This document shows positions 6,547 to 60,237 of a DNA stretch of 64,000 nucleotides, piece after piece. Position 1 is the first letter of the stretch, and each line of letters starts with the position of its first letter. This stretch comes from Leifsonia sp. EB41 (GTDB lineage: Bacteria; Actinomycetota; Actinomycetes; Actinomycetales; Microbacteriaceae), in contig NZ_JBGCCJ010000001.1 of NCBI RefSeq assembly GCF_041262565.1, forward strand, positions 1,302,001-1,366,000, in the 5' to 3' direction. The position numbers were made by a program, and so were the translations under genes. Below the pieces are notes generated by a model. It was given only the letters and a program-made list of their open reading frames with translations, searched no databases and was not told where the DNA came from.

Positions 6547-6909
6547 GTGACCTCCACGCACGACCAGCAGACCCCGATCAAGGTCGGGCCCAACGACATC
6601 CTCCGCTTCGTGCTGGAGCTGTTCGCCATCGTCTCGCTGGGCATCTGGGGCTTCGCCGCGTGGCCGCTGCCGTGGAACTTCGTCGTCGGCATCGGAGCTC
6701 CGGTGCTCGCGATCCTGCTGTGGGCGCTGTTCCGCTCCCCGAAGGCCGTGCTCCACGTCGACGCGTTCGTGAAGGCGCTCGTGGAGATCGTCGTGATGGG
6801 CTGCGCCGCCTTCGCCTGGTGGAGTCTGGGGCAGCCGATCGTCGCGCTGGTGTTCGCGGTCGTGGCGACCGTGAGCGGCGTGATCAACGGGCGGCGCGAG
6901 TTCGCATGA
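6547..6909 (+). CDS. YrdB-family (DUF2568) small membrane protein
   Basis: This 120-residue protein has four hydrophobic segments (about residues 20-40, 45-65, 75-95 and 98-115) and little else. Its start (IKVGPNDILRFVLELFA) and aromatic-rich helices resemble the YrdB/DUF2568 family, whose function is unknown. The GTG start is supported by a -10 box 6 bases upstream. The stop overlaps the ATG of the next deacetylase (ATGA), so the two are translationally coupled. Whether it has a transport-related role in amino-sugar use is not known. Confidence 0.72.
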   Translation: MTSTHDQQTPIKVGPNDILRFVLELFAIVSLGIWGFAAWPLPWNFVVGIGAPVLAILLWALFRSPKAVLHVDAFVKALVEIVVMGCAAFAWWSLGQPIVALVFAVVATVSGVINGRREFA

Positions 6910-8054
6910 CCGGCGTCGTCGTCCATGACGCCCGCAAAGTGGATGCGAGCGGACGGGTCGACGAGTTCTGGCTGGTCGCCGACGGCGACACGATCGTCGC
7001 GACCGGCTCCGGCACAGGCTGGCACGAGGCCGCCCGCGTCCCCGGCCGCGAAGTGATCGACGCCGGAGGTCACTGGCTGACCCCCGGATTCATCGACCTG
7101 CACTGCCACGGCGGTGGCGGGCACCCGTACGACGACGGCCCGGAGGAGATGCTCGCGGCCCTCGCGACGCACCGCGCCCACGGCACCACGCGCGCGCTCG
7201 TCTCCCACGTCGCCAATCCGCTGGCCTCCCTGCGCGAGAGCCTCGGCGTCGTGGCCGACCTGACCAGAGTCGATCCGATGGTGCTCGGCTCGCACCTGGA
7301 GGGGCCGTTCCTGGCCCGCGAGCGGCGCGGCGCGCACGACGACGCCTTCCTGCGCGATCCCGGCCCCGAGATGGTGGAGGAGCTGATCGGCGCCGCCCGT
7401 GGCACCCTCCGGACCGCGACCATCGCGCCGGAGCTGCCCAACGCCCTGGAGGCGATCGGCGTGCTCATCGAGGCCGGCGTCGTCGTCGGCATCGGCCACA
7501 CCGCGGCCGACTACGAGCAGGCGCAGCGGGCGTTCGAGGTCGGCGCGCGGCTGCTGGTGCACGCGTTCAACGCCATGAACGGCATCCACCACCGCGCTCC
7601 CGGCCCGGTCATGGCGGCGATCGAGAACCCGGAGGTGACGCTCGAGCTCATCCTCGACGGCCTCCACGTCCACCCGTCGGTGGCGGGTCTGCTGTTCCGC
7701 GAGGCGCCGGGTCGCGTCGCGCTAGTCACCGACGCGATGGCCGCGGCCGGCGCCACGGACGGCGACTACCGCCTGGGCGGCCTGAACGTCAGCGTCCGCG
7801 ACGGCCTGGCCGTGCTCTCCGGCACCACCACGATCGCGGGATCGACCCTCACCCAGGACGCCGCCCTCCGTAACGCGATCACCCGCGTCGGACTGGACCC
7901 GGTGACCGCGGTCGCCGCGCTGACGGCCACGCCGGCGAAAGCGCTCGGCGAATCCCGCCTCGGCCGCCTGCACGCCGGCTATGCCGCCGACGCGGTCCTC
8001 CTCGACCACGACTGGCACGTCCAGCGCGTCCTGGCCGCAGGCCGACTCCTCTAA
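6906..8054 (+). CDS. nagA: N-acetylglucosamine-6-phosphate deacetylase, copy 2
   Basis: This second NagA amidohydrolase (382 residues) is clearly paralogous to the one at 4418. It has LTPGFIDLHCHGGGGHPYDD, GSHLEGPFLARERRGAHDD, GIGHTAADY, LVHAFNAMNGIHHR and the catalytic Asp in VTDAMAAAGATDGDYRLGG. It would deacetylate N-acetylglucosamine-6-phosphate, giving glucosamine-6-phosphate for NagB, which is encoded convergently just downstream. The start is fixed by the ATGA overlap with the yrdB-like gene; an in-frame extension further upstream would run through that gene. Unlike copy 1 it has Cys in place of Gly between the two metal histidines (HCH versus HGH), which may reflect a different metal or substrate preference. 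Confidence 0.9.
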   Translation: MTGVVVHDARKVDASGRVDEFWLVADGDTIVATGSGTGWHEAARVPGREVIDAGGHWLTPGFIDLHCHGGGGHPYDDGPEEMLAALATHRAHGTTRALVSHVANPLASLRESLGVVADLTRVDPMVLGSHLEGPFLARERRGAHDDAFLRDPGPEMVEELIGAARGTLRTATIAPELPNALEAIGVLIEAGVVVGIGHTAADYEQAQRAFEVGARLLVHAFNAMNGIHHRAPGPVMAAIENPEVTLELILDGLHVHPSVAGLLFREAPGRVALVTDAMAAAGATDGDYRLGGLNVSVRDGLAVLSGTTTIAGSTLTQDAALRNAITRVGLDPVTAVAALTATPAKALGESRLGRLHAGYAADAVLLDHDWHVQRVLAAGRLL

Positions 8055-8086: not shown

Positions 8087-8269
8087 AACGGAGGAGATAC
8101 TGCCGGGTCGGACCGGGATCTCCTCCGTTAGCACCCCTCCCGGCACCCGCCGCCACCGATCTCCTCCGTTACCGACACCGTCGCGAACGGAGGAGATCAG
8201 GGCCGCGGTACGACCGAAAAGCAGCGAACGGAGGAGATCCGGGGCCGTGTGGGCGGGATGTCCTCCGTT
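8087..8269 (+). repeat. Multi-hairpin intergenic element, copy A (six 12-bp arms)
   Basis: Six copies of AACGGAGGAGAT or its complement lie between two convergent genes: plus at 8087, minus at 8118 and 8159, plus at 8186 and 8227, and minus at 8258 (the last reads ATGTCCTCCGTT). Start-to-start steps are 31, 41, 27, 41 and 31, so the whole element is symmetrical. Two units (8087-8129, 8227-8269) are 43 bp with 12-bp arms and a 19-nt spacer; the middle pair (8159-8197) has a 15-nt spacer. A second element with the same spacing lies at 58453-58677. It may act as a bidirectional terminator, a protein-binding array, or a dispersed REP-like repeat. Confidence 0.85.
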
Positions 8270-58452: not shown

Positions 58453-58677
58453 AACGGAGGACATCCCCATCCCCCACCCCCCGAAACGCAGCCAACGGAG
58501 GAGAACCAAGCCCACCACGGCCGGAGCTCCTCCGTTACCCGACATTCACGCCCTCCCACGACCGGATGTCCTCCGTTCGCGACCGGCGTCGGCAACGGAG
58601 GAGAGTTCGGTCCGGGCACCCCCGGAAAGCAGACAACGGAGGAGATCCGGGCCCGGGTGGGCAGGATCTCCTCCGTT
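58453..58677 (+). repeat. Multi-hairpin intergenic element, copy B (seven 12-bp arms)
   Basis: This element fills most of the 341-base gap between the ABC-F start and the guaB stop. Arms like AACGGAGGAGAT occur in plus orientation at 58453, 58494, 58594 and 58635, and in minus orientation at 58525, 58566 and 58666. The start-to-start steps are 41, 31, 41, 28, 41 and 31, which from the second arm on repeat the 31, 41, 27, 41, 31 of copy A at 8087. Several arms carry single changes at the last bases (GACAT, GAGAA, GAGAG). GAAANGCAGNN precedes the plus arms at 58494 and 58635, as it does the plus arm at 8227 in copy A. Confidence 0.85.

Positions 58678-58698: not shown

Positions 58699-60237
<1,539 letters not shown>

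Follow-up and report, generated by a model that had tools for sequence, protein, structure and literature searches.

The closest described counterparts of the element studied here are the REPIN, REP and BIME repeats. REPINs are reported to combine conserved arms with spacers of defined length and to belong with RAYTs (PMC3116915), and REP families are located behind the stop codons of convergent or tandem genes, with spacers that are conserved in one dimer orientation and variable in the other (PMC3733652). The latter source ties GTAG-type REPs to a RAYT and reports CGTC-type REPs without a dedicated enzyme. Gyrase is reported to bind some E. coli BIME-2 elements (PMC6379681).

The window, i.e., the whole stretch of 64,000 nucleotides of the Leifsonia sp. 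EB41 genome (G000) that was analysed, contains at positions 8087–8269 an element named copy A. Its six 12-bp arms start at 8087 (+), 8118 (−), 8159 (−), 8186 (+), 8227 (+) and 8258 (−), and the steps of 31, 41, 27, 41 and 31 bp given in a first-pass annotation of this DNA were borne out, with five of the six arms being exact and the sixth, AACGGAGGACAT, carrying one mismatch. The location at the meeting point of amino-sugar genes was likewise as annotated, with a gene for an amidohydrolase (PF01979; NagA-like by context; 6906–8054, + strand) and one for a NagB-like protein of the glucosamine-6-phosphate isomerase family (PF01182; 8296–9093, − strand) converging on copy A. Allowing up to two mismatches, 17 arm matches were found in the window, compared to a mean of 3.31 and a maximum of 8 in 100 shuffles; the exact 21-base skeleton of one unit occurred five times in the window and in none of 100 shuffles. 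Matches to Rfam at gathering score were absent from the window.

Considering all arms in 35 additional stretches of G000, the elementary unit was defined as an 84-bp sequence with three 12-bp arms, namely arm1, arm2 at +41 bp and an inverted arm3 a further 31 bp downstream. Copy A consists of two such units in opposite orientation, with their arm1s facing each other at a 27-bp step. The reverse unit (8087–8170, − strand) comprises arm3' (8087–8098), arm2' (8118–8129) and arm1' (8159–8170); it is followed by a 15-bp junction (8171–8185) and the forward unit (8186–8269, + strand) with arm1 (8186–8197), arm2 (8227–8238) and the mismatched arm3 (8258–8269). Both units were part of the training set of the unit model, which recovered the reverse one (G000:C1:1310082-1310176) and gave the forward one as the best-scoring match listed. 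Copy B (58453–58677) adjoins the 3' end of the IMP dehydrogenase gene guaB (58699–60201, − strand). As had been annotated, it follows the same lattice; its geometry is not identical, since it has seven arms, with steps of 41, 31, 41, 28, 41 and 31 bp, in three overlapping or adjacent units (58453+, 58494−, 58594+), and a step of 28 bp replaces that of 27 bp. At the guaB 3' ends of G006, G017 and G008 (L183, L185, L186), ordinary hairpins with arm-like GGAGGGGA...TCCCCTCC stems take the place that copy B has in G000. Two nagB genes (C1:2613937 and C1:4124859), 96% and 95% identical to the window protein, occur in G007, and the 3' element is present at the second (C1:4124859) only.

With the REPIN/REP repeats that accompany a RAYT in Pseudomonas, E. 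coli and others (PMC3116915, PMC2817692), the Leifsonia units share the short, dispersed, intergenic format, inverted arms that are better conserved than the spacers, a defined spacer length, multiple sequence groups per genome and an enzyme gene beside repeats. They differ from the doublet described there in having three arms (+,+,−), in their actinobacterial host and in having a winged-helix/nuclease-like candidate partner instead of a RAYT. The Y1 transposase domain of RAYTs (PF01797) was found in none of the 28 genus genomes at E ≤ 0.001, while the same search was positive in 5 of 14 control genomes; the family was therefore not filed as REPIN. At the foot of the palindrome, the consensus is GTCG before arm1 and GCAG before arm2, not GTAG. 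Like the CGTC- and GTAG-tagged REPs, the units are found behind stops, mostly of convergent or tandem genes, and show the same contrast between one dimer orientation with conserved spacers and another with variable ones; a cGTCG-like motif as in the CGTC REPs precedes arm1; the CGTC families, in contrast, have loops of 4–5 nt compared to the 19-nt spacer between arm2 and arm3 and the third arm in Leifsonia (PMC3733652). The words Actinobacteria and Leifsonia do not occur in the main text of that source. With BIMEs, the units have in common the alternating orientation with two linker types and the formation of arrays; sequence, unit and host phylum are different. A literature search, in whose coverage subscription papers were mostly not included, yielded no report on the three-arm family, and the string AACGGAGGAGAT matched five papers, which concern pigs and plants as judged by title and abstract start.

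The search of the genome and its relatives that the annotation had called for revealed further copies. In G000, 131 arms with at most one mismatch were found, compared to none for the reversed control, and the unit model, which uses sequence only and was built from 46 units, gave 109 matches when both strands of the palindromic units were counted. The exact arm is present in 24 of the 28 Leifsonia genomes and unit-model matches in 27 of 28, the model being built on G000 and hence favouring its relatives; class-1 matches, i.e., those to the arm type of the window, were as few as 0–4 in G004, G005, G009, G012 and G014. Among 84,980 species genomes, a set from which near relatives of the window may be absent, the exact skeleton was found in 85 stretches, all of them in Leifsonia. 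A family-level search matched 24 of 299 genomes, six of them in the genus; the other 18 matched at 6e-6 or weaker, some of them perhaps by chance. In viral contigs, no exact skeleton was found; a phage or plasmid origin of the units was rejected, as neither these contigs (exact skeleton) nor plasmids or phages gave a match. One array in G006 (G006:C1:3278232-3278523) has three arms at exact periods of 140 bp, corresponding to the full lattice period, which suggests tandem growth. A separate-looking palindromic repeat with the core CGTGCCGAATGT, or close to it, was observed at L248, L291, L119 and the leuA 3' end of G009 (L379). We regard the repeat family and its geometry as firm.

The spacing of the arms is rigid, compatible with the constraint proposed in the annotation. 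Neighbouring arms in the same direction are separated by a 41-bp step in 312 of 367 cases and +/− neighbours by a 31-bp step in 285 of 324. Facing arm1 junctions have a step of 27 or 28 bp in 22 of 30 cases; facing arm3 steps vary between 23 and 90 bp, in addition to 20 overlapping four-arm cases. The distances between facing units follow a rhythm of roughly 10.5 bp (jitter test, p = 0.0034 after a rough orthologue grouping in which one group merged 30 loci), which was stronger in a second, ungrouped test. In 61 orthologous unit pairs, arms differ at 10.2, 8.8 and 11.0% and spacers at 40, 39 and 47% of the positions (G006, G007 and named loci, respectively), the arm values being lower bounds since the loci of the relatives were mostly picked for having arms. 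Across these pairs, arm positions 3–8 show six changes in total; changes concentrate at positions 1–2 and 10–12, and this concentration is not accounted for by the selection of arm-bearing loci.

Base pairing between arms was evaluated in 265 units. It did not exceed expectation at arm positions 10 (0.58 vs. 0.61 expected) and 11 (0.60 vs. 0.58), while the loop-proximal pairs 54–57 covary weakly (z 4.7; covariation score equalled in 7 of 500 shuffles). The annotated three hairpins of copy A are thus only partly borne out, with weak pairing support close to the loop and none at positions 10 and 11. Because the spacing is rigid and the arms are far less diverged than the spacers, without covariation at positions 10 and 11, the arms would be read chiefly as double-stranded DNA, with a minor role of a hairpin being possible. 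The idea of a ribosome-binding RNA was not supported. The arm corresponds to the complement of the 16S 3' end except at positions 3 and 9, where the mismatching base is nearly fixed (252 of 265 units have C3 together with its arm3 partner, and 248 of 265 have A9), the opposite of what anti-SD binding would select for; moreover, arms are present on both strands. The annotated options of a REP/BIME-like repeat, a non-autonomous mobile element and a protein-binding array would each be compatible with the data.

Gene context was analysed with a simple codon-score gene caller in sets that overlap, with several named records coming from the same genomes as other sets. Convergent junctions accounted for 113 of 170 element-bearing gene pairs, compared to 10 of 57 in the window baseline; by set, the share was 19/34 in G000, 25/35 in G006, 19/27 in G007 and 50/74 in the named loci. 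Divergent pairs with an element numbered four in G000, one each in G006 and G007 and four in the named loci. No cluster was located wholly within a called gene in any placement set (0 of 34 in G000). The median distance from element to flanking stop codon was 15–20 bp; the element itself contained the stop codon in 31 of 291 cases. Single units in tandem gene contexts favoured one orientation (25 vs. 8, p = 0.005; 17 vs. 7, p = 0.064, with orthologues grouped). No replication polarity was evident in G000, where, with the origin taken as dnaA, 22 units run with the fork and 29 against it (p = 0.40).

In 102 orthologous unit comparisons, the unit was present in 64, unaligned or deleted in 8, and alignable but with one or more arms poor or unmapped in 30; several of the latter are register shifts on the lattice, so that clean deletions are not claimed. 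Orthologous places differ in the number and orientation of units. The 3' ends of leuA and the acc gene were sampled in all 28 genomes irrespective of arms. The leuA slot contains a class-1 unit with all 36 arm bases intact in G000, G006, G007, G011 and G017. In G008, G023 and G025, it is occupied by a unit that keeps this geometry but carries arms of a second class, AACTCCGGAGAT; persistence in the same slot with intact arms suits a host function as well as mobility. The exact class-2 arm, a 13-mer, is present in 11 of 28 genomes and absent from G000. Under a strict cut-off, 232 units were purely class 1, 10 purely class 2 and none mixed, where the absence of mixed units could also be explained by common descent of the units. 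When a degenerate pattern that left out class 1 was applied to 398 genomes, it matched only G008 and, likely by chance, G369.

A gene of about 280 codons at the acc locus (280 in G006; ends vary) encodes a protein that combines a winged helix of the AbiEi type with a putative restriction-endonuclease-like domain, a domain type associated with the PD-(D/E)XK fold. In the five acc-locus proteins scanned, AbiEi_4 scored above the cut-off in all (30–45 vs. 25), PF18741 (REase_MTES_1575) below it in all (25–35 vs. 38.2) and PF04480 (DUF559) above it in one (22.8 vs. 20.6). A PDB sequence search gave no credible match (best E 0.4), and no homologue was found in plasmids at 1e-10. Of the 28 genomes, 23 carry this gene, termed nuclease gene here, at the acc locus, and those without it there may have it elsewhere. 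Its flanking arms are of class 1 in 15 genomes, of class 2 in 5 and of neither class in 3. In 12 genomes, the gene has complete units to either side (class 1 in G000, G001, G002, G006, G007, G010, G011, G017, G020, G021 and G023; class 2 in G025), and another five (G008, G013, G018, G022, G026) have two or more arms per side, giving 17 of 28. Of the 20 class-1 or class-2 cassettes, 8 lack complete flanks; one side has a single arm in G003 and no recognised arm in G019 and G004. The cassette layout of reverse unit, gene and forward unit is the outward layout of copy A. No cassette is present in G015 and G024, where the genes on either side overlap, compared to 1,110 bp between them in G000; precise loss of the cassette would give the same picture as such empty sites.

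Some features of individual loci were recorded. The G000 copy of the nuclease gene (L062:1690-2490; G000:C1:3389389-3390189) has a frameshift near the C-terminus, and that of G026 is also frameshifted, as judged by two tblastn pieces in different frames. In G000, a GNAT-like gene (by eye; L038:2517-3245) has inverted units on both sides, too, and flanking alone is therefore not diagnostic. An autonomous element between close unit pairs was rejected, as the intervening genes at L038, L060, L062 and L063 are, by eye, mutually unlike; the one at L062 is the nuclease gene. At the acc locus of G005 and G012 (L415, L395), the nuclease gene is flanked by other short, recurring motifs, which may represent further arm classes.

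In the nuclease tree, all eight proteins outside class 1 fall into a single clade (97% support). The species tree based on guaB and nagB contradicts this, since G008 groups there with G017 and G013 with G001. In AU tests on the nuclease, G008+G017 (3.9e-5), G013+G001 and the species tree were rejected, and on the species genes, class-1 monophyly was rejected. The concordance of nuclease and arm class would also be explained if gene and flanks had been transferred together as a single cassette, and such transfer is part of the reading favoured below. Class-1 matches numbered 43–148 in the 15 genomes with a class-1 cassette and 0–56 in the other 13 (Mann–Whitney p = 7e-6, uncorrected for ancestry). 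Of two sister genomes, G003 has 133 class-1 matches and the nuclease gene, and G027 has 17 and no gene at the acc locus. With the gene, G010, G019, G020, G021, G022 and G026 have 43–83 matches; G009, G016 and G024, without it at the acc locus, have 3–11. G008 and G013 have class-2 cassettes, yet 56 and 50 class-1 matches, and G007 and G017 have class-1 cassettes, yet 12 and 9 exact class-2 arms; class-2 number is weakly associated with cassette class (p = 0.015).

A third arm was found in G014, a genome with no class-1 model match. Its nuclease gene is flanked by a different repeat, TCCGTTCGAGCGGA, once upstream and three times downstream at 39-bp steps, with three of the four copies being exact. 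In 20 evenly spaced 20-kb pieces, corresponding to 400 kb of 4.09 Mb (~10%), this repeat gave 2, 7 and 22 matches at 0, 1 and 2 mismatches, compared to 0, 0 and 4 for the reversed sequence, and the matches formed three arrays with neighbours mostly at 39–41 and 69–70 bp and once at 80 bp. Class-1 arms gave 1, 4 and 28 matches (reverse 0, 1 and 8) and class-2 arms 0, 0 and 20 (reverse 0, 0 and 2), neither forming a cluster. As all arms exceeded the reverse control at two mismatches, only the counts at 0–1 mismatch and the clustering favour the G014 arm. Of 199 shuffled near-palindromes, one reached seven clustered pairs and thus clustered as much as the G014 arm (mean 3.1 matches, one with 52). 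No exact TCCGTTCGAGCGGA copy was found elsewhere among the 452 loci compared.

Taken from sequence comparison, copy A is, in our moderately confident judgement, a non-autonomous member of a genus-specific REPIN/BIME-like family that would be served by the nuclease-like protein of the acc locus. The 12-bp arms would be DNA recognition sites, and their fixed spacing (41 bp direct, 31 bp inverted and usually 27 or 28 bp between facing arm1s) would allow several sites to be read together. The trans-acting partner would most likely be the two-domain winged-helix and restriction-endonuclease-like protein, encoded elsewhere in the chromosome than copy A; it would recognise the arms and nick or cut the DNA, by which units may be copied into, or kept at, gene ends, presumably the sites where insertion harms least. 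There, the palindrome may act as a two-way transcript boundary.

A host-owned array, in which the three arms at gene ends serve as binding sites for a nucleoid or supercoiling factor with no relation to the nuclease, would account for arms conserved in place, rigid spacing, the ~10.5-bp periodicity of facing-unit distances and the convergent placement, and has a parallel in gyrase as reported on BIME-2 (PMC6379681). We consider it unlikely, as the units are nearly absent from the five genus species with 0–4 matches and arm class goes with nuclease lineage. Less probable still is a bidirectional terminator acting as an RNA hairpin with arm2 and arm3 as its stem. The short distance behind stops, the strong predicted fold of the copy A interval (z −6.3), the weak loop-proximal covariation, the orientation bias of single units in tandem contexts and the ordinary hairpins at the same nagB, guaB or leuA end in relatives read without the element all fit such a role; it is disfavoured by the lack of excess pairing at arm positions 10 and 11, by the exact arm sequence and third arm that are kept beyond the needs of a stem, by the fixed 29-nt and 19-nt spacers and by the absence of a T-run adjoining copy A. 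A MITE of a hypothetical transposase, with the arms as terminal repeats and the nuclease as a bystander, is the most doubtful reading, since, despite the inverted terminal layout and the varying unit number and orientation at orthologous places, arms are conserved while spacers diverge, unlike in decaying insertions, no target duplication was recognised by eye in the too diverged flanks, and arm class tracks the nuclease.

Returning to the nuclease-served family, we give a nearly even chance to its being a new repeat–enzyme partnership, in which REP-like units would be spread and kept by a winged-helix/PD-(D/E)XK-type nuclease, not a RAYT, and in which three or more arm specificities (AACGGAGGAGAT, AACTCCGGAGAT and TCCGTTCGAGCGGA) would change with the enzyme. 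Literature linking AbiEi_4, REase_MTES_1575 or DUF559 proteins to dispersed repeats was not found in a search whose coverage took in few subscription papers. Position, phylogeny and copy number here connect a different protein class with a repeat family; the flanks of its gene pointed to the arms of another genome. AbiEi/DUF559-type genes could then be repeat partners elsewhere, and the natural class switches make specificity directly testable.
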